Shown here in pieces: positions 25,389 to 39,339 of a stretch of 40,308 nt of DNA; the stretch's first letter is position 1; every line of letters starts with the position of its first letter. The notes under the pieces were generated by a model. That model did no database searches. It was not told where the DNA came from and worked only from the letters and a program-made list of their open reading frames with translations. Both the position numbers and the translations under genes were made by a program. Location of the stretch: NCBI GenBank assembly GCA_902705865.1, contig CACSIO010000013.1, positions 2,230-42,537 of the forward strand, read 5' to 3'. This stretch comes from BD1-7 clade bacterium. GTDB taxonomy: Bacteria; Pseudomonadota; Gammaproteobacteria; Pseudomonadales; DT-91.

Positions 25389-27584
25389 CTATTGAATCGG
25401 CACCTGATTCGACTCCTGTTTCAATGCAAAACTATCGGTGCTATTGACACAGTTTGACGCCAGCAACATACCGAGTTCATTCCAAAAATAGTGCCCAACG
25501 GCCGCCAGATCAGCGTCATTTAAATACTGCTTCTGGGACGACAACAACAGATCAACACTGTCATCTTTGCGTATCAGTAAACACGTTAGTGGATATGAAT
25601 GATCAATATAGCCCGGTAATGCAAACACTGCTGGCGTATTGTCTTTATTGCGTAAGTACTGTTTTAGATCTGCGTTTTTTACGTCTGCTGCACCTCCGAG
25701 ATTGAATCTCAGCACATTAGCTATGGATGTTTGATCGAATAAATTGAAGTAAAACGGAACCGCCTGGCGACAAGGCGCATCATCTGGTAGGTGATCGGCG
25801 TAGAGGTTTTCCATAAACGGGGAGGTATTATTCAACGATGCAACATAGGCAGATTCCACAGATCTAACGAGTTCTCTGTTATCCGATCGACCTGATTCTG
25901 TGTTAACTGCCCCCAAAGACGAGACAGGCAAGCTCACCAATACAGATTTCGATAAACAACCCACCGTGCGCCCTAAACGATTGTCATCTCTGTTCATAAT
26001 CGCGGTGGCAAAAGTAACGTCATCGCCATCATCACCTAAATGCATAATTGTTTTCACAAATGCGGCTTGGGCCAACTGACGAAACCGCGTCACGTTCAGC
26101 TGCATCAATGCGGGATATTCGCCGATTAACTGCTCATCAGCAGCTGTCTGAGCTTGCACGATCTGAGACGACGATAACGCATGCTTTACCGGTAAACACA
26201 GCATCTGCTGTTGCGCAAAACGATCACGCCAGTATCGACACTGACAACGGTACTTAGGTGCTTGCATTAACACGTCAGCTTCCCAGCGAGCATAATCACG
26301 GTAGCTGCATTTTACTGGCGGTAATTCTGTGCTCCATCCGTGAGCCAGTGCATGAACCAAATAATCCAGTTCGGCGATCAACTGCATCAGCGAATGAAAG
26401 TCGTAAATCAGATGAAGAGCATCAATCAAGATCGCCCAGCCGCCATTTTCACGTTTATAGGCATGCCAGTGAATCAATGGCTGATGAATATCTAATACGA
26501 CGGATGTCGCTGTTACGGCGTTGTGCAAAATACTGGCATCGCTGAGAGGTTCTCGCACAAATGTTATCGACTGCCGGGTGTTTTTTTGCACATGCCTTTG
26601 TATACACCCCGGCACAGCATCGTTCTCTCGTCGAAAACACGTTGCCAGCACATCATGACGTTCGCCCAGCATATTCACGGCAGTTTCAATCATCGATTCA
26701 TTGAATGATTCGGCTAGCCAAAACCCTGTCGCCGAACGGTGCTGGATGTAATGCTCGGCCAAACCGAAATACCAGCTCTCTAAACTCGACGCCGGAGACA
26801 CTCTGATCGAATCACCGGTATCATCGCGAGCTTCAGCCCCCGAATCATAACTCGACTGTGGTGACTGAGTACCCGACAATTCCGTTAGAAGAAACTGGGC
26901 AATTTGCTCTATCGATGGATCATCAAAAATCAAAGCCGAGCGCAGCTGAAGCTGCCAACGGCGTTCGATACGGCCGATCAAAGCCATAGCCATCAACGAG
27001 TTCACCCCTTGCGAAACCAAACTGCGGGTTGGGTGTAATTTTGCGGAGGTGCATTTCAATAACTCGGAGACTTCATCAACAAGAAAGGCACGAATCTCAC
27101 AGATGTCGGCCACGGCTGCCGTGGGTAGAGGTGCCAATTCATGCAGGCACTTATGAATATCAATAACCGACGTTTGCAACAAGGCTGGCGCGCTGTCGGT
27201 CAACACCGAGAGTTTTTGCGCATTGTCGGTATCGCAAAGCACGATTGCCGGATCGGCATCATCAACAAACCGGAGGAAGGCATCAAGGCTCCCGCCTGCA
27301 GTCGGTAGATCACCAGGTACCGCAGTCACACCAGCATAAAAACAGCCAAATAGCGCTTCTATAAAGCCAATACCCTGGCCAAACAACAAAATGGCACGAT
27401 CGCCATGCTTCAGGCTGTTTTTATCCAGCAATACGCTCGCCAACACGCGCGCACGCATATCCAACTCACCGTAACGTATTTGTTCGCTGGGAATTCCGCT
27501 GTCTTTCAAATAGGTATACGCAATGTCATTGGGGTTTGTTTGGGCATGAAGTCGAGCGATATCAACGAGCGTTTTTTCTAACAC
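25389..27584 (-). CDS. Truncated fatty-acyl-AMP-ligase head + carrier domain + condensation domain
   Basis: 731 aa, NRPS-type. Residues 1-about 140 match the N-terminus of fatty-acyl-AMP ligases (TLVDIARLHAQTNPNDIAYT, LFGQGIGFIEALFGCFYAG, TAVPGDLP, DPAIVLCDT), but the ATP-binding core and C-lobe are missing. The sequence passes directly into a carrier domain (about 155-240) with the phosphopantetheine Ser196 in GVNSLMAM. A condensation domain follows (about 260-715): its HHxxxDG motif is LHLIYDF (H391, Asp395), so the second His and Asp remain. It cannot activate an acyl group itself; it may be loaded in trans. GTG at 27584 has GGAAGG seven bases upstream. Open to 27650. A neighbouring methyltransferase follows it. 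Confidence 0.8.
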   Translation of the reverse strand: MLEKTLVDIARLHAQTNPNDIAYTYLKDSGIPSEQIRYGELDMRARVLASVLLDKNSLKHGDRAILLFGQGIGFIEALFGCFYAGVTAVPGDLPTAGGSLDAFLRFVDDADPAIVLCDTDNAQKLSVLTDSAPALLQTSVIDIHKCLHELAPLPTAAVADICEIRAFLVDEVSELLKCTSAKLHPTRSLVSQGVNSLMAMALIGRIERRWQLQLRSALIFDDPSIEQIAQFLLTELSGTQSPQSSYDSGAEARDDTGDSIRVSPASSLESWYFGLAEHYIQHRSATGFWLAESFNESMIETAVNMLGERHDVLATCFRRENDAVPGCIQRHVQKNTRQSITFVREPLSDASILHNAVTATSVVLDIHQPLIHWHAYKRENGGWAILIDALHLIYDFHSLMQLIAELDYLVHALAHGWSTELPPVKCSYRDYARWEADVLMQAPKYRCQCRYWRDRFAQQQMLCLPVKHALSSSQIVQAQTAADEQLIGEYPALMQLNVTRFRQLAQAAFVKTIMHLGDDGDDVTFATAIMNRDDNRLGRTVGCLSKSVLVSLPVSSLGAVNTESGRSDNRELVRSVESAYVASLNNTSPFMENLYADHLPDDAPCRQAVPFYFNLFDQTSIANVLRFNLGGAADVKNADLKQYLRNKDNTPAVFALPGYIDHSYPLTCLLIRKDDSVDLLLSSQKQYLNDADLAAVGHYFWNELGMLLASNCVNSTDSFALKQESNQVPIQ

Positions 27585-27767
27585 GTGCAAGCCTTCCGTG
27601 AGCTGAGACCGTTTTATATTTCTCACCAGTGCTACCACCAATACACTCACATCAACGCATTGTGGCCCGGTGCAGTGCCCTTAAGCGTAGTCTTAACCAC
27701 TAGCGCCTGCTGGCAAAGCGCCACACGGTAAGGTAACCCTATACTTGGAGTAGGAACCGATAGAATC

Positions 27768-27832: not shown

Positions 27833-28666
27833 CTACGGCTTGGTGTTATCGGTGTACTTTTTCAGCCATTGCTTAGGCGTAACACCAAAACGCTTTTTGA
27901 AAACTCGCGACAACGAAGAGGCATTTTCATAACCCACCTCATTAGCAACCAAACCGACCGGGCGGTTTTTTTCCAATAACCCCTGTGCCATGGCTAAACG
28001 CAGATCGGTGACATATTCCATCGGTGCTTGGCCAACACTGTCTTTGAATAGCGCGGCAAACTTGGAGCGCGACATCGCCGTTGCTTCAGCCATGCTATCG
28101 ACCGTCCATTCCATTTGCGGTGATTCTTGCAACTGCTTCATCAAAGGTGCCAGTCGCGGGTGAGAACTCGCCGCGAATAGCCCCATTTCAACTGTTCCAT
28201 TCTCGATAACATGCCGCAGTATCTGCACCATAAAAATGTCGCACAGCCGGTCGATAACAATCTTACGGCCAAACACTTCATCAAACGCTTCTTCGAATAT
28301 CCAGCGTGCAGCTTCGCTGACTCGGGGGTCTTGATCCACAGGTACCACAATGAATTTGGGTAAGTGATCCACCAAGGCGGCTTTGTGCCGCGGTTGAAAG
28401 GCGATATTGGCACACACCAACTCAGCGTCTTCAGGCTCTTTCACCTGAATCCGGTGATGGCTGCCACTCGGAATAAAAATAACCGATGCCTGATTCAGGT
28501 GGATTTCATGGCCTTGGTCTGTCACCAGCGTCATCGAGCCAGCCTTCAAAAAGTGCAAAAGCCCCGCCATTTCGGCCTCGAAGGGCTTTAACCCGCACAT
28601 TGAGCCGCTGAAAAATACATCGGCGCTGAAATCAATATCCGTCAACAACGCACTTAAAGAATCCAT
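27833..28666 (-). CDS. AraC-family transcriptional regulator with cupin-type sensor domain
   Basis: 277 aa. N-terminal cupin-like domain (about 5-150; GLLHFLKAGSMTL, NQASVIFIPSGSHHRI) as in AraC regulators of the cupin_6 type, then a two-helix-turn-helix DNA-binding domain (about 180-270; AEATAMSRSKFAALFKDSVG and EVGYENASSLSRVFKKRFGV). GGAG precedes the ATG at 28666 by five bases; the frame is open further up. It is divergent from the YHS-thioredoxin-BufABC-DoxX operon across 162 bp, so it is the likely regulator of that operon. Some bufferin loci have sigma/anti-sigma genes instead. Its ligand is unknown. Confidence 0.92.
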   Translation of the reverse strand: MDSLSALLTDIDFSADVFFSGSMCGLKPFEAEMAGLLHFLKAGSMTLVTDQGHEIHLNQASVIFIPSGSHHRIQVKEPEDAELVCANIAFQPRHKAALVDHLPKFIVVPVDQDPRVSEAARWIFEEAFDEVFGRKIVIDRLCDIFMVQILRHVIENGTVEMGLFAASSHPRLAPLMKQLQESPQMEWTVDSMAEATAMSRSKFAALFKDSVGQAPMEYVTDLRLAMAQGLLEKNRPVGLVANEVGYENASSLSRVFKKRFGVTPKQWLKKYTDNTKP

Positions 28667-28689
28667 AAATACTCCGTTTTGGACGATCT

Positions 28690-28709
28690 GCATATTTTCG
28701 TGGATATGC
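28690..28709. promoter_or_regulatory. Inverted repeat in the AraC / buf-operon spacer
   Basis: GCATAT-N8-ATATGC, a 20-bp dyad 120 bp before the YHS start and 24 bp upstream of the AraC start codon. Candidate AraC operator; promoters for the operon are not clear. Confidence 0.35.
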
Positions 28710-28828
28710 TGCGCCCTTTTCAATCGCTGCCATCCGTATTCTACACATCAAGGACGTCGGGGAAACAAAACGACGAACCCACAACATTAAAACACTTAAA
28801 CATATTCAATATCCGACAAGGACATATT

Positions 28829-29305
28829 ATGAAATTTGCTAAATCATTAAAAATCGCTGGCGCCGCAGCAGCACTTGTATTCAGCAGCCTAACTTTTGCA
28901 TCTGCCGTTAACACCGGTGAAAACGATGTCGCCATTCACGGTTACGACCCGGTAGCTTACTTCACCAAAAGCAAGCCCGTTGAAGGTTCTGCCAAATATA
29001 CAGCAACCCACGATGGTGCGATCTACCGGTTTTCAAGCGCCAAGAACCGTGATCTTTTCAAAGCAAATACTGACAAGTATGCCCCACAGTTTGGCGGTTA
29101 CTGCGCCATGGGTGTTGCTCTCAACAAAAAGCTCGATGTAGATCCAGATGCATTTTACATCAGCGATAACAAATTGTACTTGAACCTCAACAAAGCTGTT
29201 CAGAAAAAATGGCTCACCGATGTTAACGGCTATGTGAAATCTGCCGACCGCATCTGGGGTGGTATCGAAGATTTGTCAGTCACTGAAGTTAACGCTGAGG
29301 ACTGA
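28829..29305 (+). CDS. Secreted YHS-domain protein
   Basis: 158 aa with a clear signal peptide (MKFAKSLKIAGAAAALVFSS, cut after FASA, about 24). The body is a YHS domain: DVAIHGYDPVAYF, RFSSAKNRDLFKAN, FGGYCAMGVALNKKLDVDPD and LYLNLNKAVQKKWLTDVNG. YHS domains occur in metal-ATPases and stand-alone periplasmic proteins and are linked to metal binding; the Cys in GGYCAMG is the likely ligand or redox residue. AAGGA lies six bases before the ATG at 28829; the frame is open to 28679. It is first in the buf operon, seven bases before the thioredoxin gene. Confidence 0.9.
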   Translation: MKFAKSLKIAGAAAALVFSSLTFASAVNTGENDVAIHGYDPVAYFTKSKPVEGSAKYTATHDGAIYRFSSAKNRDLFKANTDKYAPQFGGYCAMGVALNKKLDVDPDAFYISDNKLYLNLNKAVQKKWLTDVNGYVKSADRIWGGIEDLSVTEVNAED

Positions 29306-29312
29306 CACGCAT

Positions 29313-29660
29313 ATGGATGCCCCTACCTCGGGCATCAATGTGAATGGGCGCGACATAGAAGAACCACTTGTACTTCTTTGGTTCAGCGCCCAATGGTGTG
29401 GCCCCTGTAAGCAGCTTAACCCAGTGATGGAAACCGTCGTGGGTGCATACAAAGGCAGGGTTCGCATATTCAAGATTGATGTCGATAAACAGCAAGACCT
29501 AGTTCAACAATATGTCATTCGCAGTGTACCCACACTGATCCTGTTAGGTTCGAAAGGCATCGCAGATCAACGTACCGGTTTGATATCAGTCACTGATATC
29601 CGCCAATGGCTGGATCACCATCTAGCCAATGAGAACGCCAATCAACGGAGAGCGTCATGA
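29313..29660 (+). CDS. Thioredoxin-like protein in the bufferin operon
   Basis: 115-aa thioredoxin fold with WCGPC active site (about residues 28-32; [16 protein letters not shown]) and the cis-Pro loop [11 protein letters not shown]. No signal peptide or membrane segment, so probably cytoplasmic. The ATG at 29313 has GAGGA about eleven bases upstream. The stop codon overlaps the bufA start (ATGA at 29657-29660), which couples it to the peptide gene. It may keep the BufA cysteines or the enzyme partners reduced before or during modification. This is inferred from context. Confidence 0.88.
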
Positions 29661-29941
29661 CCAAGCAACAACGTATAGCAACTGCCGCACTGGCACTGAC
29701 ATTAACTACCATGGCCGTTGCCCCGGCAGCACATGCGGGCGGCAAAGAGAAATGCTACGGCGTTTCTGCAGCTGGACAGAATGACTGCGGCAACCTTGCA
29801 GGCACACATTCCTGCGCAGGCCAATCAGCGGTCGATAACGACCCAGGCGAATGGAAGCTGGTTGCCAAAGGCACCTGCGAAAACATCGGCGGCATGTTGA
29901 AGGCCGAAGCGAAAAAACGTTATCAGGCGAACAATTCCTGA
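29657..29941 (+). CDS. bufA: Bufferin-type DUF2282 precursor peptide
   Basis: 94 aa. Signal peptide with AHA cleavage site near residue 27, then a small Cys-rich domain with four cysteines (C33 EKCYG, C44 NDCGN, C53 HSCAG, C74 KGTCE), the DUF2282 pattern. In bufferins the MNIO enzyme converts Cys residues to thiooxazole-type heterocycles that bind copper; the peptide is exported by its ordinary signal. The ATGA overlap with thioredoxin and 34-bp gap to bufB (with AGGAG before it) put it in a single operon. Which cysteines are modified here is not shown by the sequence. Called GigP in the gold-induced operon of Cupriavidus, as I recall. Confidence 0.93.
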
Positions 29942-29975
29942 TCCAAAGATTAACATTGTACGTTAGGAGAATAAG

Positions 29976-30932
29976 ATGTCCCGTTCAGAGCATGCCAGCT
30001 TGTCTCGTCGTCAGACACCCGGTCTTGTTGGAGTCGGTCTTCGGCACCCGCACTATCGGGACTCCTTGAGCGGGACATCTTCCATCGATTTTTTAGAAAT
30101 TCACGCAGAAAACTTTTTTGCTGAAGGTGGCGTTATTCCTGCGGTACTGGAAGACGTATCTCAGCAGTATCCGATCAGCTTGCATTCAACCTCGCTCGGG
30201 CTTGGTTCTGCAACTGGCGTTAATCAGAATTATCTAACTCGGCTTGAACGCCTTGTTAACAGAATCAACCCCTTACTGGTATCTGATCATGCCAGTTTCG
30301 CCTGGGGAGAATTTAACGGCCACGCTGTTCATGCAGGCGATTTACTACCGATCGAATTTACTCGCCGAAGCATTGATGTGTTAGTCACCAATATCGATCG
30401 TGTACAACAAACACTGGGTCGACGCATCTTGCTAGAAAACCTGTCGGCTTATACCGCTTACCCGAACGATATTATTCCGGAAACCGAATTTCTTACAACC
30501 ATCGCCGATAAGTCGCAGTGCGGATTACTGATTGACCTCAATAACTGCTTGGTCAACGCGCACAACTTTGCTGACGACCCCCCTCTGGCTGCGGCACAAC
30601 GATGGTTTGATGATATTCCACCATCGCTGATTGGCGAGATTCACCTTGCGGGTTATACCCCACAGGCGAAACCGAATTTTGTGATCGATGATCACAGCCA
30701 ACCGGTTTCTGAACAATGCTGGGAGTTGTACCACTATGCATTGGAGCGCACCGGCCCAGTCACGACCTTAATCGAATGGGATAACAATTTGCCCGAGTGG
30801 CATATCCTGCTGGAACAGGCAGAAACAGCGCGCAAAATCATGCACCAAGCCACCGGTAACAGCCCGATCACTAGCGCAACGATTTCAGAACAGCAAAAGG
30901 CTGAACAGTCAGAGGTGACCCATGCAATCTGA
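29976..30932 (+). CDS. bufB: DUF692 / MNIO multinuclear iron enzyme
   Basis: 318-aa TIM-barrel-type oxidative enzyme that modifies the BufA cysteines using a di/tri-iron centre and O2. Family residues are plain: FLEIHAENFF, SLHSTSLGLG, VSDHASFAWG, ILLENLSAY, LLIDLNNCLVNAHN, GEIHLAGY, DDHSQPVSEQCWELY and TLIEWDNNLPEW. The His/Asp/Glu ligands all seem present. AGGAGA lies six bases before the ATG at 29976. Normal length (about 280-320), with a C-terminal tail of about 25 polar residues. Its stop lies inside bufC (11-bp overlap), so the two partner proteins are coupled in translation. Confidence 0.94.
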   Translation: MSRSEHASLSRRQTPGLVGVGLRHPHYRDSLSGTSSIDFLEIHAENFFAEGGVIPAVLEDVSQQYPISLHSTSLGLGSATGVNQNYLTRLERLVNRINPLLVSDHASFAWGEFNGHAVHAGDLLPIEFTRRSIDVLVTNIDRVQQTLGRRILLENLSAYTAYPNDIIPETEFLTTIADKSQCGLLIDLNNCLVNAHNFADDPPLAAAQRWFDDIPPSLIGEIHLAGYTPQAKPNFVIDDHSQPVSEQCWELYHYALERTGPVTTLIEWDNNLPEWHILLEQAETARKIMHQATGNSPITSATISEQQKAEQSEVTHAI

Positions 30933-31689
30933 TATTCCAAGCCTGCAAGAACAGCAAAATCGCCTGCTAACCGATATTTTTAGTCGCCGAAGCACCGATA
31001 GCCAGGGCATTCAGGTATATCAAAATAACCTGCTGATGACCGCAGCGCGCGCTCTTTCAATCACTTATCCGGTATTGGAACACATGATTGGCGAGCAGCC
31101 GATGATTGCATTGGCAAGAGAGCTACTGCAAACAACACCGCCCGGCAGCGGCGACTGGGCAGATTGGGGCGAGCATTTAGCTGACCTCATTACTCAAACA
31201 CCGTTAGCAGATGATGCCCCATTTCTTGCCGATATGGCACGCCTAGAATGGGCTATCCACGAGGCCGGTCGGCACCATGCAGCCGTCTTTGATACGCAAT
31301 CACTGACACTGCTGAGTGAGCATGATCCAAACAATCTGTATCTGGTATTCCCAACCACGTTTCGTGTGATCGCTAGTGAGTTTCCTATCGATTTAATCTG
31401 GCAGGCACACAAGACAGATTCCGACGAAATAAAACTCGACCAACAACGCTTGGAAGAGGCGTTAGCAGCAGACCACCAGCCTTGCTACCTGCGTATTGAT
31501 CAACAGCATCTCGTGCCCAACATCACACGTTTAGCCGCCGATGATTTTGCCTGGGAACGCGACGCCCTTAACAAACAGAGCTTGGGAAGCTTATTAGATG
31601 CCCACCCGGAATTTGATTTGGGTGCGTGGCTTGCAGAGGCCTCGAGCCATCACCGGCTGCGCGGCTTACGCCTGGCGCTGTACAGCTAA
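30922..31689 (+). CDS. bufC: DUF2063 partner protein of the MNIO enzyme
   Basis: 255 aa. The N-terminal DUF2063 domain is seen at about 8-95 (LQEQQNRLLTDIFSRR, GIQVYQNNLLMTAARALSIT, YPVLEHMIGEQPMIALARE); the rest is a mixed alpha/beta region ending in WLAEASSHHRLRGLRLAL. Such proteins act as a recognition subunit (RRE-like) that presents the precursor to BufB. It overlaps bufB by 11 bp and is followed 108 bp later by a DoxX-family gene. Confidence 0.9.
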   Translation: MQSDIPSLQEQQNRLLTDIFSRRSTDSQGIQVYQNNLLMTAARALSITYPVLEHMIGEQPMIALARELLQTTPPGSGDWADWGEHLADLITQTPLADDAPFLADMARLEWAIHEAGRHHAAVFDTQSLTLLSEHDPNNLYLVFPTTFRVIASEFPIDLIWQAHKTDSDEIKLDQQRLEEALAADHQPCYLRIDQQHLVPNITRLAADDFAWERDALNKQSLGSLLDAHPEFDLGAWLAEASSHHRLRGLRLALYS

Positions 31690-31797
31690 TAACCTCATCG
31701 AACGACAATAATTAATACTCACCACATGCACTACCACAACAACAAACAACCTATAAACCACTGATTCAAATGCAAATAAGTTGCAAAGGAGACATCC

Positions 31798-32253
31798 ATG
31801 ACTGAACTCACCCAACGTCTTTACCAAAACTATGCCATTGTCAGCGATGGCCTCGGTAAACTGCATTCCGTAGCCTCTGTTGCTGCACGACTTTATATTG
31901 CCCAAATCTTTTTCAGTGCCGGGCTAACCAAAATTCGTGACTGGGATACCACTCTGTTTCTCTTCGAAGAAGAGTATCACGTGCCCTTTATACCTTTCGA
32001 ATTGGCAGCCTACTTAGGCACCTTAGGCGAGCTAGTGTTTCCGGTATTACTGTTTGCCGGCTTGTTTACCCGGTTTTCGGCGCTGAGCCTATCGGTGGTT
32101 AACGTCATTGCTGTTATTAGCCTGGCAGAAATCGCGCCAGCAGCGTTTTACCTACATGTAATCTGGGGAGTCTTACTGGCTCAACTGGCAGTGTATGGCG
32201 GCGGCGTTCTTTCTGCGGACCATTGGATTCGTGCGAAACTAAATAAAAGGTAA
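31798..32253 (+). CDS. DoxX-family membrane protein
   Basis: 151 aa with four predicted membrane segments (about 26-46, 60-85, 93-115, 120-140). DoxX pattern: ARLYIAQIFFSAGLTKIRDW and AYLGTLGELVFPVLLFAGLF. AAGGAG sits six bases before the ATG at 31798. DoxX genes end bufferin/gig operons (BufD/GigT), so it is placed here despite the 108-bp gap. Exact role unknown; possibly linked to the redox or export step. Confidence 0.9.
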   Translation: MTELTQRLYQNYAIVSDGLGKLHSVASVAARLYIAQIFFSAGLTKIRDWDTTLFLFEEEYHVPFIPFELAAYLGTLGELVFPVLLFAGLFTRFSALSLSVVNVIAVISLAEIAPAAFYLHVIWGVLLAQLAVYGGGVLSADHWIRAKLNKR

Positions 32254-32323: not shown

Positions 32324-32613
32324 CTTATCAAAATGAACGCACCGAACGCTCACTCAAAAGTAAGCGAGTCAGCATTCTAATCGTCGACAACTCACAGGCT
32401 TCATACTTAAATTTCACATCTAAAATGCACAATAAACTCGTTAAAAAAGTGCCCAACATTGAATGTCGATACCAAATAATAACTTCTGATCTGACCTTCC
32501 TAGTTTTGTGAACCCATTCAAATAAGCTCATTTTTAACCGAACATTGTGAACAGTGCCCTGTACTTGCCGCGATAACATACACCCTGAACACTGTTGTAG
32601 ATTCAGGGGTAAC
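32324..32613. other. Spacer before the giant metalloprotease gene
   Basis: AT-rich, no supported gene. TTGTGAAC occurs twice (about 32504 and 32543), which may be chance. A minus-strand frame over 32328-32669 overlaps the protease start and lacks support. Promoter not defined. Confidence 0.4.
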
Positions 32614-35600
32614 ATGAGCAAGTTCACACTATCCAGTCTGTCATTTTTTATGGCTTTCTCCGCACTCACTCACGCAAGTGGGGGTGAATCCGAGTTAACG
32701 CAGGCACAGGTCGGCTTACCGTTTCATTCCGGAGCTGTCACTCCGGTTAACCGAGAGTTACTGCCCAAAGGCCCCAAACACAACCTAACCTTTTTAAAAA
32801 ATGGTGAGCCACTTACACCGCTAACCGACACCTACAGTCGCACCGAACTGATCTTCCCGATTGAACAGACCTTTAAGCTACACTCGAATCCTCAAGCACC
32901 CCGCAAACTGTATTTGTGGTTTAAAAATTACGAAAATCCAACGTCCGCGGATGGTCTTACTGTCGGACTCCATGGCTCTGAAATAGAACACCTGTTAGAA
33001 AAATATCCCAACCTCTATGCCATGATGCCAGCAAGCATGCGTGAAACGGTTGAAACCAAAGGGTGGACTGCGACTCGAAAAGTGGGACAATCAGCTGAAG
33101 AATTTCTCGCCAGTGACTTCGTCAAAGCACTGATAGCCACCCCCGAGGGTCAAGCCTATTTCAGCAACCCCAACAGGCCTTTTCTCTGGCGCGCACATGA
33201 TGTTGATGGCGATACTGACTACTTCAATACGGAAGAATCAGCCGTCATTCAAAAGTTCTTTATGGCCGCATCGGCGTTTTATGCACCCTACGAAATTGAC
33301 ATTACTACGGAAACACCAAGCCCGGAAGACTTAGCACGTACATCCGCCGATGATGACTCCTACGGCGTTCGGGTTTTAATCAGTTACAGCCAAAGCACAC
33401 CAAATGCCACCAACGATTGGGACGGCCTGGATTTGTCGGTCATTGGCCAAGAAAAACCGATTCAAGCACCAACAGGTGGTTACGCCACCCCCAATACTAC
33501 CTTTCACGAATTTGGCCACAACCTGGGCAATGGCCACCATCCCGTCAATACATCCGATGGCGGTTATTTCATCGAAAATATCCCATGGGGCTACTTAAAA
33601 GGACCGGGGAATACCTCGGCACGCTCAATGATGGGGGCAAGGTTCTACGACACACGTGCAGTTAGCACACCGTTTGAAGTGCAAGCTATATCGCCCAATA
33701 TTCAACCTCGGGTCGATGACTTTGCCAATACGATTGATGATGCAGCACCACTTTTGCCAGCGATTGATCAAGATTTGTTAATTCGCTGGGCTGTTATTGA
33801 ACACAGCAGTGACATTGATGTATTCACTTTCACACTGGACTATGAACAACAGATTCATTTAAAGATAGAACCGGTGTTTCACAGCGGCGTTAACTTGAAT
33901 ACAACGCTGCTGGCATCCTCAGGCACTGTAATTGAAACACAGGATTTTCACGGAGACACCGACAGCCAATACCGCCGAAATCTGCCGGCTGGCGAATACT
34001 ACCTGACAGTGAAAACCAGCAAATATGAACCGCTGACAGGCAGTTGTTGGAAAGTGGGCGAATCACGTCCAACATCGACTAGCCAATGTAAACAAGGCAC
34101 CGGCAGCCATGAGTACGGCGCATTAGGGCCATACACCGTGTCGCTGGCCACCAGCGATGACATCCGGGGAATTATGCCTGCACGTGGCAACATGCAAGTA
34201 CGAGCTGATCGTTTTTTACTGAATGGCGATGCTGAGCACGAATTAGATGTACTAGCCAATGATCGTTTTGAAACACAAGCCCGTGCAACTATTTCGCTGC
34301 TAACGTTGCCGAAACACGGAACTGCACAGGTGTCACACGATAACACGATCATTTACCAACCGGATGCCAATTACCTTGGTATGGATGATTGGGCATATTC
34401 GGTAACGATTAACGACAAAGTACAATCTGAACGTATCCATATTACAATAGCCACTGACGCAGACACCTTGTTAGCCAATGATGACTTCAAACTCACGTTT
34501 GAAAATCATCCAGTCAAAGTCGATGTACTATCGAATGACTTTGCCTTAAATGACACTCTCAAGCTTGTTGCCATCAGTTCAGAACCACAGCATGGGCGTG
34601 TTGAAATAGCACTTGATGGCACACTGGTTTACCACCCGGACGTATTCTATTCAGGTACCGTAGACGACATATTCCAGTATGTTACCGGCAACAGAAATAA
34701 TTTGTATTTGGCAGAAAATGAACGCATTGATGATGAATTCAGTTACGTCGTCAGCAACGGCATGGAGGAAACAACAGCAACTGTTAGAATTGCGATTCTA
34801 AACAACGAATTCCCGTCCATTGCCATTCCAGACCACGCTACTACGCCTACGAATGTGCCCACAAACATTCATGTATTCGACAACGATATTGTCGCAACCA
34901 TTAACCCGATAACAAACAAGCCTGCCCATAGCATCCGACACTTCAGCCAACCGCAATTCGGCCGCGTTCGATCAATAGGCAACAACACGCAGGGTATTTT
35001 TGAGTACACACCCGATAGTGGTTTTTGTGGCGAAGACAGATTCAGCTACCAAAGTTCAGACACTGGAGATCAACGAGCAGACGATGTCGGCGATGTCTTT
35101 ATTTCCGTTGTCTGTTTGGCTGAGCCCGACGAAACCGACACGGGTAATGGAAACAACACAGTGAACCTGCTGTCGATCCAACGACACGAACCACTGCAAA
35201 AAAAGATTCCTGAAGGCACAACAACTTTTTATGTGCAGTTTTCTACTGCAGTTCAAAACGTCGACGTATCTGATTTTGCCCTGCAGTACTCAACAAGTTC
35301 AGGCCAACCGACCAACGACAAACCGCTATCATCATTAACCGCAGTAACACAAATCGCCTCGGATCTTTACGCAGTAGACGCTCAACTCGAAGGTTTTAGT
35401 GCGATCAACGACAACACATTGTTCACTGGTCGCCAGCGTTTGGTACTGAAAGCCTCCGCGGATATCAGTAATGCCGATGGCCAACTCATCTCCCAAGCAC
35501 TGCCATTAACACATGAGTTCTACATTGTTGACGAAAGAAGCCAGAACAACTTCCCCATTTCTCTAGTGAACATTCCCCAGCGGATATCTGATACCACCGC

Positions 35601-38600
35601 GTTTACCTTCACGCTCAATAGCCAACGCAGAACCAAAGCCGAGATTTCATCGTTTGAAGTCCAAGGTGGCACGATTACCGAGGTAGCAAAAATCGGCGTT
35701 AACTCGTCAGTGGATAAGTTTCATGTGACCATTCAACCTGATGGAACTGGCGATGTTGTATTTCACTCACCGCAAGGCGCACTTAAACTGTTTGGCTCTC
35801 TATCATCCATCACCTCTGCTGCACTAACGCACACCATCCAATACCTACCTAACGGTGTTGGAATGTCGTCAATTGAACGCCATCAACCGAGCGAGGCGAC
35901 AACGAGCCAACAATCATTAGTGTACAACGTTCAGTTCGCAGCGCCGGTGACCAATGTCAGTGCCGCGAGCTTCAGCGCAACGGGCATCACTAATGCAACC
36001 GTTACGGGAGTCGACGCGCAAAATACATCGACCTATCGAGTCTCTGTGTCAGTCGCCGACGGTGAGTCGGGCGATATCGGTTTAACACTATCGGCAGCTC
36101 ATGGCGTCCGAGTGGCAGATGCCTCTCAGCAGTCTGTTCAAGCGCATGTATCCGGTAATAACGACACCTTTATGATCACATTCAACCCGAACCCACCGCT
36201 GTTACAGAGCATTCAACGAAGTGATAGTCGAGGTGCATTTGTAAACGACAACGAACTTATGTTCGACATCACCTTTTCAAAAGCAGTGACACTCTCAGCA
36301 GACGACATTGCATTGCACTCGACTGGTGGCGCGGTAACATTGAGCGAGGTTGTCGCATCGAGCGTGACAGGCAGTCGCCATGTCGCCACCGTTGCAGTCC
36401 CTGAGAATTTTGAGGGTACGATTCGCCTCGGCATTAAAGGAACTGGCACAGAGCCTGGCAACAACACCATCCGAGATACCAATAACCAACCGCTGTTATC
36501 CGATGCTGCAGAGCAAATTCAACACTATCGCGTGGATAATTCTGCACCGGCGCTAACCATCAATGCGCCGGTTTCGGCAGCCAGTGGTTTGCCCTTCACA
36601 GTGACGTTATCGTTTGATGATGAAGTGAGCGACTTTTCTCCAGAAGACATTCAGCTGACGCATGCAACCTTACTTTCACTGGAACGCGCAGTGCCACAGG
36701 TTGGCCACTTTATTGCACAAATCGAAGCGGGCGATACTGGCCCGATCATGATTCAAGTGGCTGACAGCGCTGCCGTGAATCTGCTGCAAGTTGGCAATTC
36801 GCCTGCGGAGGTGAGTATCGAACTGGATAATCAACAGCCATCCGTTTCACTCATCACACCGGAAGCCGTTAACCCCGGTGGCATCGCGGAAGTGATTTTG
36901 GATTTTTCTGAAGCCATTGCCGATTTTGAACGGGCAGCCATCGCACTGACCAACGCACGGATCACACAGCTACGCCGACTCGATGCAGATAGCTATAAAG
37001 TCACCCTGCAGGCGGATGATAATGCCACGGATACCGTCACTATCAATCTAGTGCCTCAACGAATCACCGATGTAGCCGGCCAACCTATTCTGCCAGCGTC
37101 AGCAACGATTGCAGTATCAAGCCAAGTGCCGACCGTTACACTCAGCGACGCCAGCAACCTGATCGCGTTGAATGAAACATCAGACATCATGTTAGATTTC
37201 AGCGTAGGCATCACCGGTTTAACCGTTGACGACTTTGTAACCACGGGCCTCACCATCACCGAACTTTCTCAAACAACGCCGAGCAACTACACACTGAAAG
37301 TCATCGCGACAGATTCTCTAGCGGTATTAAAACTGCCGCAAGGCGCCGTTGAAAGTGTTGTGGGCAATAAAGCTAATGAGCTGTTTCAACACAGCTGGGT
37401 AGCCAAAGAATTCGGGCCACGGCTAACACATACTGACATTCCCGATGTAGTAAACGGTGCATTTACGGTTACGCTAACGTTTGACGAAGCTATCGTACCG
37501 CTAACAACCGATAGCATTCAGGTACGCGGCGGCCAAATCACGGCGCTCGAAAATACCGATAGCACGCTATGGCATGCCGCTGTCACTCCCGATGGTAGCC
37601 GCACAACGATCACGTTCGATGTGCAAAAAGCACAGATACGCTCCCTTGCAGACAACAAGCTGGCGCTAAAACCAATCACACTCACTACCCGCTTCGATAA
37701 TGTTGCACCTAGTTTTGTGATACGCAGTTCTTCAGGTAATCTCGAAGGTGGCACCTTGGTGCTTGAGTTCTCTGAACCCGTGCGCCGCACAGGTAATATT
37801 TTCTCGATTGAAGCGCTGAATATAGGCGACCCGGCACCCGTTATCAGCTCAGGGGCTTATGACGGCAGCGATGAGCCAATAGAACGATTAATCGTTAACT
37901 TTTACGCGCCCACACAAGAAAGCCTGAGACTCACCATCAACGGCGGTTTTGAAGATTTGGCTGGTAACCCCAGCGCAGGCAGCCTGAATACACGCATCCA
38001 CCAGGATATCGTGACGCCAACGCTATCGTTCAGCGCACTGCCTGATGAAATCACTGACAATCAAATATTCAGTGTCATTGTGAATGCGAGTGAAACCATC
38101 GGCAACGTCGATGCCGATGCCCTTTCTATCGACAATGCACAGCGCATTGATGTGATGTGTTCAGGTAGCCGTTGCGACATCCGCTTGCGGGCGACAGGCT
38201 TGGGCAATATTCATGTCAGAGTGATGGAGGGCTTTATCACCGACCAAGCAGGTAACCCAAACCTCGCACAACTGTTTACCAGTATTGATGCGAACCTGCC
38301 ACAACCAGTATTAAGCTGGGTGAATGCGCCTGAAGTCATCGGCATCGCCCCCAAGGTACTCCGCCTGCAAAGTAATACGTCTATCACAGGTTTGACGTCG
38401 AATGACATTGGCATTCAAGGAGGCTCCATCACCGACTTTAACGCCATCAACAACACAGAGTTCGATATCACCGTACAGGCCTCCGCCGACACCGCACAGG
38501 CCACGCTAACGATTGCCGCTGGTGCCGCACAATCTAGCGACAACAGTTTGGATTCGTTGGCCGTCGCTGCACTGGTGTTGAATGTTGATGCTCAAAACCC

Positions 38601-39339
38601 GACTATTTCGCAGTTTGAACGATACAATCTGCATAACCGGCTGGTTAACACCGAGCAGATTCAATGGCTAGTGCATTTCAATGAAGCACAGATCAATACA
38701 CAGCCATCGGATTGGCAGTTGAGTGATGCTTCAGCGTTATCAGCACCGCTGACGGTAGAAACATTCGACACGAATGTATGGCTGCTGACCGCGCCTCTGG
38801 TTGCTGATTTTGAAGGTGAAGTGCGCCTGACGTTAGCCTCAAATCACGATATTCATGATGCCGCGGGTAACCGCCTGACCAATGCAGCTCCACTGGCGCC
38901 TAAATATAACGTTGTACGCACCGGTATCATTGCCAACTGGAACGCATTCGAACCGGTCATTACACAAACGAACTTTGTGTTAACACTGGCGTTTAACGAG
39001 CCGCCACTTGATCCCCCTAGCGCTCCCGATTTCATTCTGGAAAATGCACAAGTGAACGCTATCGAAGCACTGGACAACAGACGCTTCCGTATTCGCCTGC
39101 GTGCGCAGCAAGACACGGCGATAAAGGTTGAGCTCAAAGCGAATACCGTGAGCTTCGGCGAGAATGTGAAGAACCGAAGCACAGGTGCCGCTGAGTTAAC
39201 GCTGGATTTAGAAACCAGCGAACCAACACCACCGGTGACACCGAAGCCTGCGCCACCAGCACCTAAGCTGTTTTTCGGTAGCGTACATGCATTGATGGTA
39301 ATGCTGTTAGGAATGTTGGTGCTCATTCGACGCCGATAG
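32614..39339 (+). CDS. Giant secreted metzincin-like protease with Ig-like repeats
   Basis: 2241 aa. Signal peptide to about residue 22 (THA-SGG). A metzincin zinc motif HEFGHNLGNGHH (H298, catalytic E299, H302, H308) with a probable Met-turn SMMGA (M339-M340) lies in the N-terminal 380 residues. Then a pre-peptidase C-terminal-like beta domain (about 390-500), about three VCBS/cadherin-like repeats (about 530-840; DVLANDRF, DVLSNDFA, HVFDNDIV), and about 13 divergent Ig-like modules of 90-110 residues (about 850-2200; FTVTLSFDDEVSDF, DFSEAIADFERAA, FSEPVRRTGN). The C-terminus is a Pro-rich linker, a hydrophobic segment and RRR, like sorting tails. AGGGG precedes the ATG at 32614. Cell-surface protease or adhesin; substrate unknown. 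Confidence 0.85.
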   Translation: MSKFTLSSLSFFMAFSALTHASGGESELTQAQVGLPFHSGAVTPVNRELLPKGPKHNLTFLKNGEPLTPLTDTYSRTELIFPIEQTFKLHSNPQAPRKLYLWFKNYENPTSADGLTVGLHGSEIEHLLEKYPNLYAMMPASMRETVETKGWTATRKVGQSAEEFLASDFVKALIATPEGQAYFSNPNRPFLWRAHDVDGDTDYFNTEESAVIQKFFMAASAFYAPYEIDITTETPSPEDLARTSADDDSYGVRVLISYSQSTPNATNDWDGLDLSVIGQEKPIQAPTGGYATPNTTFHEFGHNLGNGHHPVNTSDGGYFIENIPWGYLKGPGNTSARSMMGARFYDTRAVSTPFEVQAISPNIQPRVDDFANTIDDAAPLLPAIDQDLLIRWAVIEHSSDIDVFTFTLDYEQQIHLKIEPVFHSGVNLNTTLLASSGTVIETQDFHGDTDSQYRRNLPAGEYYLTVKTSKYEPLTGSCWKVGESRPTSTSQCKQGTGSHEYGALGPYTVSLATSDDIRGIMPARGNMQVRADRFLLNGDAEHELDVLANDRFETQARATISLLTLPKHGTAQVSHDNTIIYQPDANYLGMDDWAYSVTINDKVQSERIHITIATDADTLLANDDFKLTFENHPVKVDVLSNDFALNDTLKLVAISSEPQHGRVEIALDGTLVYHPDVFYSGTVDDIFQYVTGNRNNLYLAENERIDDEFSYVVSNGMEETTATVRIAILNNEFPSIAIPDHATTPTNVPTNIHVFDNDIVATINPITNKPAHSIRHFSQPQFGRVRSIGNNTQGIFEYTPDSGFCGEDRFSYQSSDTGDQRADDVGDVFISVVCLAEPDETDTGNGNNTVNLLSIQRHEPLQKKIPEGTTTFYVQFSTAVQNVDVSDFALQYSTSSGQPTNDKPLSSLTAVTQIASDLYAVDAQLEGFSAINDNTLFTGRQRLVLKASADISNADGQLISQALPLTHEFYIVDERSQNNFPISLVNIPQRISDTTAFTFTLNSQRRTKAEISSFEVQGGTITEVAKIGVNSSVDKFHVTIQPDGTGDVVFHSPQGALKLFGSLSSITSAALTHTIQYLPNGVGMSSIERHQPSEATTSQQSLVYNVQFAAPVTNVSAASFSATGITNATVTGVDAQNTSTYRVSVSVADGESGDIGLTLSAAHGVRVADASQQSVQAHVSGNNDTFMITFNPNPPLLQSIQRSDSRGAFVNDNELMFDITFSKAVTLSADDIALHSTGGAVTLSEVVASSVTGSRHVATVAVPENFEGTIRLGIKGTGTEPGNNTIRDTNNQPLLSDAAEQIQHYRVDNSAPALTINAPVSAASGLPFTVTLSFDDEVSDFSPEDIQLTHATLLSLERAVPQVGHFIAQIEAGDTGPIMIQVADSAAVNLLQVGNSPAEVSIELDNQQPSVSLITPEAVNPGGIAEVILDFSEAIADFERAAIALTNARITQLRRLDADSYKVTLQADDNATDTVTINLVPQRITDVAGQPILPASATIAVSSQVPTVTLSDASNLIALNETSDIMLDFSVGITGLTVDDFVTTGLTITELSQTTPSNYTLKVIATDSLAVLKLPQGAVESVVGNKANELFQHSWVAKEFGPRLTHTDIPDVVNGAFTVTLTFDEAIVPLTTDSIQVRGGQITALENTDSTLWHAAVTPDGSRTTITFDVQKAQIRSLADNKLALKPITLTTRFDNVAPSFVIRSSSGNLEGGTLVLEFSEPVRRTGNIFSIEALNIGDPAPVISSGAYDGSDEPIERLIVNFYAPTQESLRLTINGGFEDLAGNPSAGSLNTRIHQDIVTPTLSFSALPDEITDNQIFSVIVNASETIGNVDADALSIDNAQRIDVMCSGSRCDIRLRATGLGNIHVRVMEGFITDQAGNPNLAQLFTSIDANLPQPVLSWVNAPEVIGIAPKVLRLQSNTSITGLTSNDIGIQGGSITDFNAINNTEFDITVQASADTAQATLTIAAGAAQSSDNSLDSLAVAALVLNVDAQNPTISQFERYNLHNRLVNTEQIQWLVHFNEAQINTQPSDWQLSDASALSAPLTVETFDTNVWLLTAPLVADFEGEVRLTLASNHDIHDAAGNRLTNAAPLAPKYNVVRTGIIANWNAFEPVITQTNFVLTLAFNEPPLDPPSAPDFILENAQVNAIEALDNRRFRIRLRAQQDTAIKVELKANTVSFGENVKNRSTGAAELTLDLETSEPTPPVTPKPAPPAPKLFFGSVHALMVMLLGMLVLIRRR

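Follow-up and report, generated by a model that had tools for sequence, protein, structure and literature searches.

Which roles a thioredoxin, a YHS protein and an AraC-family regulator might have beside the genes for a bufferin is the question raised by a locus in a 40,308-nucleotide stretch of contig CACSIO010000013.1 of BD1-7 clade bacterium (assembly GCA_902705865.1; Gammaproteobacteria, Pseudomonadales), hereafter called the window. Here yhs, trx, bufA, bufB, bufC and a DoxX gene follow one another on one strand, and the regulator gene diverges from them (Table 1). The core of the locus is a Buf1 bufferin operon, and the AraC-YHS module, the thioredoxin (Trx) and a predicted operator are conserved additions to it; Trx and AraC are absent from some members of the YHS-bufferin branch. 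The sequences establish the gene order and its conservation, the confinement of Trx to the YHS branch and a motif that follows AraC. We infer that a bufferin operon has been placed behind an AraC-YHS stress module, and an input (oxidant, copper or both), a substrate of Trx and a function of YHS are likewise proposed below.

The preliminary description of the locus had claimed a bufferin-type operon, which is borne out by a four-Cys DUF2282 precursor, an adjacent MNIO, a DUF2063 partner and DoxX, all of which score above their Pfam cut-offs: BufA against DUF2282 (86.4 bits, cut-off 22.4), BufB against PF05114 (MbnB_TglH_ChrH, 282.5 bits, cut-off 25), BufC against DUF2063 (PF09836, 49 bits, cut-off 27.2) and DoxX against PF07681 (55.4 bits, cut-off 23.6). 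Against the NCBIfam models, BufB scores slightly under the cut-off (NF050167 MNIO_BufB, 297.8 bits, cut-off 310), DoxX remains under it (NF050144, 63.2 bits, cut-off 80), and BufA reaches 27.7 bits with the model of the BufA2 type, Cu_RiPP_BufA2 (cut-off 60). The relatives of BufB in the PDB are 3bww and 7dz9. The cysteines of the window BufA are Cys33, Cys44, Cys53 and Cys74, and the 12 BufA precursors of the surveyed branch carry, as judged by eye, four Cys at the same motifs. The putative signal peptide of BufA was likewise read by eye.

PMC12452194 presents the bufferin cluster as a core made up of precursor, MNIO, DUF2063 and DoxX genes, and gives the central Cys of the Buf1 precursor as modified and its first and last Cys as a disulfide; according to the same paper, bufferins improve growth under copper stress, and extra conserved genes occur in their operons in extremely low proportions. 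The Buf1 operons of Caulobacter and the GIG operons share with the window the core genes and the four-Cys precursor, whereas YHS, Trx and AraC with its predicted operator are the window's additions. A term search of the main text of that paper found neither thioredoxin nor YHS nor AraC (the supplementary tables may list such genes), and term searches of PMC12538549 and PMC12668002 found none of them either. No description of a YHS- or Trx-linked bufferin operon was found in the open-access literature searched, subscription journals lying mostly outside this scope.

The claimed order YHS-Trx-BufABC-DoxX and the overlaps at trx/bufA and bufB/bufC are real, as judged from the coordinates of the open reading frames. 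YHS and Trx are separated by 7 bp, Trx and BufA overlap by 4 bp (ATGA), BufA and BufB are 34 bp apart, and BufB and BufC overlap by 11 bp. DoxX is likely to belong to the same transcript as the upstream genes, and only likely because 108 bp separate it from bufC. The ATGA overlap of trx and bufA was observed in this genus only, the distance in the other measured Trx loci ranging from -29 to +88 bp. The listed contamination of the genome is 8.9 %; the cluster nevertheless does not lie on a stray contig, since a genus-mate has the same cluster with a BufB that is 94 % identical. A matching gene order is kept in the genus-mate (L004/L054), in another family (L005/L040) and in another order (L197), which excludes a chance arrangement.

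Table 1. Features of the bufferin locus, in positions of the window
Feature	Position	Strand	Description
AraC regulator (Cupin_6 + HTH_18)	27833-28666	-	divergent from operon
Predicted operator, AraC-YHS intergenic	28681-28708	+	half-site + degenerate second half
yhs	28829-29305	+	YHS (seleno)protein family
trx	29313-29660	+	thioredoxin fold
bufA	29657-29941	+	DUF2282 precursor
bufB	29976-30932	+	MNIO maturase
bufC	30922-31689	+	DUF2063 partner
DoxX/HvfX-type membrane protein	31798-32253	+	PF07681

To examine the conservation of this arrangement, 390 genomes from the order were searched for DUF2282; a match was obtained in 88 of them, at 101 places. All places but the window itself were fetched (100/101), and four in which no BufA was recognised were dropped (L104, L106, L107 and L108; in L104 a YHS gene is present and the DUF2282 match lies in a 43-residue frame), leaving 96 BufA loci. 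YHS adjoins BufA in 12 of these and is absent beside the other 84. Trx is found in six of the 12 YHS-positive loci and in none of the 84 YHS-negative ones (Fisher p ~1e-6), and AraC diverges from YHS in 7/12. Because the survey was driven by DUF2282 and not by YHS, the search itself did not create the link between YHS and BufA. The 12 YHS loci are also those with the BufB proteins nearest to that of the window (E <=1e-76, as against E >=1e-61 for the remaining loci). In this survey YHS is constant in the branch, AraC is frequent, and Trx accompanies the YHS branch only, which supports the preliminary description in part; the check that it had proposed, for YHS and Trx beside DUF2282, returned conservation and not the lack of it.

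In a class-wide sample of 369 genomes, three of 118 DUF2282 places adjoin one of 72 YHS places, namely the window, L197, which holds the full AraC-YHS-Trx-BufABC-DoxX operon in another order of the class, and L198. The YHS-bufferin variant is therefore real and found across orders, yet a minority. A GTDB scan with a YHS alignment was used to collect the best 80 loci among the matches listed, a set that was fetched by YHS and has no unbiased denominator: BufA adjoins YHS in 31 of them, Trx is also nearby in 13 of these 31, and AraC and YHS occur together without BufA in 11. Among the matches listed, BufA-linked YHS genes were observed in Alteromonas, Marisediminitalea, Motiliproteus, Moritella, Psychromonas, Marinobacter, Glaciecola, Cognaticolwellia and Methylophaga. 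The Motiliproteus locus (L116:6001-10637) is rearranged, with YHS-Trx-BufA-DoxX, an AraC gene on the opposite strand and then BufB-BufC, and a tandem BufA pair stands behind AraC-YHS-Trx in Psychromonas (L125, L127). In two related genomes that have neither Trx nor AraC (L038, L112), the gene just before YHS encodes a small protein that contains Cys and whose start resembles a signal peptide. The genome of the window itself contains two further weak DUF2282 domains in tandem, within a single open frame of 196 residues (G000:C34:226187-226507).

In a FastTree phylogeny of 123 BufB proteins, a clade of 38 rows with support 100, all with YHS, contains all 12 survey loci. These 12 were found irrespective of YHS, the window was given, and 25 rows were fetched via YHS or via YHS and DUF2282, so that the YHS label is partly built in for those 25. 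Five YHS-bufferin rows fall outside the clade (L141, L149, L157, L160 and L198), which is why YHS has probably joined bufferins more than once; its label requires five changes on the best tree, two of which are forced by strongly supported branches. The Trx label requires 10 changes on the same tree. Outside the clade, L149 has a different Trx upstream of YHS, and Deefgea (L148:5896-7788) encodes YHS, a glutaredoxin, BufA and DoxX in a row, the glutaredoxin standing exactly between YHS and BufA.

The regulator of the window scores 88.6 bits with Pfam Cupin_6 and 76 bits with HTH_18 and contains Cys24, Cys85 and Cys142, the first two of which are both kept in 32 of 34 AraC proteins encoded near YHS. 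According to the review PMC7464077, a disulfide between Cys21 and Cys89 activates RclR; these residues align with Cys of the window regulator in one alignment, and a wider alignment shifts the first RclR Cys by three residues. As judged from the family, thiol sensing by the window regulator is plausible. The RclR-rclABC system of E. coli and the RclR-RclX system of P. aeruginosa resemble the window in that a Cys-containing AraC-family regulator adjoins its target genes. The targets differ, however, those of E. coli RclR including the cupric reductase RclA, the small predicted periplasmic protein RclB and the inner membrane protein RclC; the window operon has no rclA, and its regulator is 29 % identical to E. 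coli RclR. In E. coli, HOCl stress induces copper regulons, from which the authors infer a rise in free copper (PMC7527725, as reported there), and a thiol-stress switch for a copper-binding peptide would thus be sensible.

Upstream of yhs, the predicted operator consists of a half-site, GGACGAT (28681-28687), and a degenerate second half, GGATATG (28702-28708), 21 bp further on; it is the only such site in its genome at <=2 mismatches of the pattern used. Direct repeats with 21-bp spacing are expected of AraC-family sites. The half-site GRACGAT is present in 17 of 25 AraC-YHS intergenics (dinucleotide shuffles: mean 0.4, maximum 2), a strict direct repeat with a 21-bp period in 10/25 (mean 0.005, maximum 1) and its looser form in 12/25 (mean 0.2, maximum 2). 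The form GRACGMT occurs in 19/25 intergenics (14/17 with bufferin genes, 5/8 without) and in 1/83 upstream regions of YHS-negative bufA genes. When 300 bp before YHS from 25 further loci, among them loci with AraC in other positions, were added, GRACGMT was observed upstream of YHS in 22/31 loci with AraC and in 1/19 YHS loci without AraC. The 25 intergenics were counted after near-duplicates had been dropped (L001, L004, L006, L054, L195 and L137), and AraC-YHS pairs that were not delimited by the script were left uncounted (e.g. L119, L126, L143, L151, L200, L202 and L203); near-identical relatives remain (L125/L127, L115/L117 and L049/L067), so that the motif counts are not independent events. 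A stand-alone AraC-YHS pair, for which no paper was found in the open-access literature, occurs in Vibrio, Photobacterium, Psychromonas and Thalassospira. It is divergent like that of the window, with the half-site in 5/8 delimited intergenics, but no Trx or bufferin gene was found beside it.

The Trx of the window (Pfam Thioredoxin, 75.3 bits) has a WCGPC active site and no visible signal peptide. It shares the thioredoxin domain, WCGPC and a VPT motif with classical TrxA but remains under the cut-off of TIGR01068 (78.4 bits, cut-off 96.8), and at positions -6 and -4 relative to the first Cys of WCGPC it carries Trp and Ser, whereas the classical residues are Asp and Trp, which we take to be Asp26 and Trp28. 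These are mostly replaced in the operon copies, the Asp and Trp pair being missing in 14 of 18 operon thioredoxins (the window and 13 of 17 others), and all five other Trx proteins from the loci keep both; two of three thioredoxin-fold proteins elsewhere in the genome keep both, and the TlpA-like third has Asn and Trp. On a 26-row Trx tree, which bears on the question of a single origin, the operon-Trx label requires three changes, one of them forced by strongly supported branches. With the window Trx as query, no match at E<1e-3 was found in any fetched locus without YHS, nor in the fetched stretch of the 15 AraC-YHS loci without bufferin genes, and a very different thioredoxin could be missed by such a query.

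The YHS protein scores above the cut-off of NF041384, 'YHS domain-containing (seleno)protein' (154.6 bits, cut-off 70), and falls below the gathering score of Pfam YHS (PF04945; 24.8 bits, 30.3). Its start, judged by eye, is signal-peptide-like, and the protein is apparently exported. C92 is invariant in 87/87 aligned proteins, among which neither a further conserved Cys nor any conserved His was found. The AlphaFold2 (AF2) model has a predicted local distance difference test (pLDDT) score of 90, and no confident solved-structure relative of it was found. The role of a metal partner proposed in the preliminary description thus comes down to one invariant Cys. YHS proteins are listed in the selenoprotein surveys PMC2398784 and PMC9312934, and this listing hints at redox chemistry. 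Seven long homologues (253-262 residues) were considered as YHS-Trx fusions and rejected, their extra N-terminal part not being thioredoxin. In seven YHS homologues (P0021, P0062, P0081, P0083, P0084, P0090 and P0094), 95-104 residues precede the usual start, either as a conserved in-frame upstream peptide or as a true extension.

The reading to which we give an even chance is that of a conserved DUF2282 bufferin branch in which yhs, often trx, and bufABC-DoxX stand behind a divergent AraC regulator as a thiol- or metal-switched unit, with Trx as guard and YHS as partner. The regulator would likely activate the unit via the predicted GGACGAT-type site before yhs, upon oxidation of its two conserved cysteines or upon metal binding by them. 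As judged from the family, BufB and BufC would convert the two middle Cys of BufA to thiooxazoles, and exported BufA would bind copper. The dedicated Trx, made next to BufA, may prevent the four Cys of the precursor from pairing in the cytoplasm before BufB and BufC have acted, since the inducing stress would attack thiols. In the periplasm, the single-Cys YHS protein might be the partner of BufA in redox chemistry or in the hand-off of copper. A narrower form, held tentatively and as somewhat unlikely, is that these are oxidant-triggered bufferins of many marine gammaproteobacteria, copper-chelating thiooxazole peptides that would belong to a thiol-stress regulon with a two-Cys AraC sensor, GGACGAT sites, a non-classical Trx guarding the precursor's Cys and a single-Cys YHS protein as periplasmic redox or copper partner.

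Several observations weigh against these proposals. Half of the surveyed branch (6/12) does without Trx, which therefore cannot be needed for maturation; together with the absence of Trx from all 84 YHS-negative loci, this leaves the earlier suggestion that it keeps the BufA cysteines reduced as no more than a proposal. AraC is missing in 5/12 branch loci, the YHS-BufA link is rare outside the order (the three of 118 places given above include the window), and no MNIO gene was found near BufA in the Deefgea locus, which contributes no BufB row. The window is among the 15/25 intergenics without the strict direct repeat, its looser pattern is also unmatched, and the E. coli rclA-rclR intergenic has only a weak half-site. 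Both regulator cysteines also occur in 6/10 unlinked Cupin_6 AraC controls, and with the chlor_reg_RclR model, whose cut-off of 400 the window regulator does not reach (121.4 bits), five paralogues from its own genome score 86-161 bits as compared with 96-125 bits for four linked proteins. An oxidant input is hence not specific, and a chlorine-specific regulator was dropped, since the Cupin_6 paralogues match the RclR model equally or better. The likeness to RclR is family-level only.

A copper version, in which AraC senses copper or copper-damaged thiols, YHS is a periplasmic copper partner and Trx supports reduced Cys with no oxidant role, is unlikely. The growth advantage under copper stress that bufferins give (PMC12452194) argues for it, and Cys24 and Cys85 could, by their chemistry, form a disulfide but equally bind Cu(I); however, one invariant Cys with no second conserved Cys or His makes YHS a poor metal site, and in 11 of the best 80 listed YHS loci AraC is paired with YHS in the absence of BufA. 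That YHS and Trx merely share the promoter, with no role in making or action of bufferins, is improbable: although 84/96 surveyed bufferin loci lack both genes and the BufB tree demands 10 changes for Trx, none of the 12 surveyed clade loci lacks YHS, and YHS-bufferin pairs are also found outside the clade (five rows; five changes on the best tree, two forced). Quite improbable as well is a feedback in which the operon is shut down again by Trx acting on the regulator, whose disulfide it would reduce. The co-occurrence on which this would draw is seen in raw counts, AraC being present in 16/20 Trx-positive and 7/17 Trx-negative clade rows (Fisher p 0.02), or in 14/18 against 7/17 (p 0.04) without two Marinobacter rows in which Trx follows DoxX, but phylogenetically independent pairs give no support, four Trx-positive rows lack AraC, and Trx occurs in 0/15 AraC-YHS loci without bufferin genes. 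A tie of Trx to AraC was rejected for want of such support.

Two neighbours of the locus also lie in the window. At 25389-27650 (-), a 753-residue protein with a short N-terminal AMP-binding piece (~130 residues), carrier and condensation domains resembles an internally shortened protein of the non-ribosomal peptide synthetase (NRPS) type. Directly 3' of the operon, at 32554-39339 (+), a 2261-residue protein with Ig-like (Big_12, Big_9) and cadherin-like repeats is encoded.

In this branch the described bufferin core is joined by a regulator and its predicted operator, by a redox protein and by a YHS protein that is apparently exported, a set that would likely link copper capture to thiol (redox) stress. 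Two questions are thereby made testable, namely by what means the cysteines of a precursor stay accessible to MNIO enzymes and what function YHS (seleno)proteins have, and with this branch copper sequestration and thiol stress can be connected genetically.

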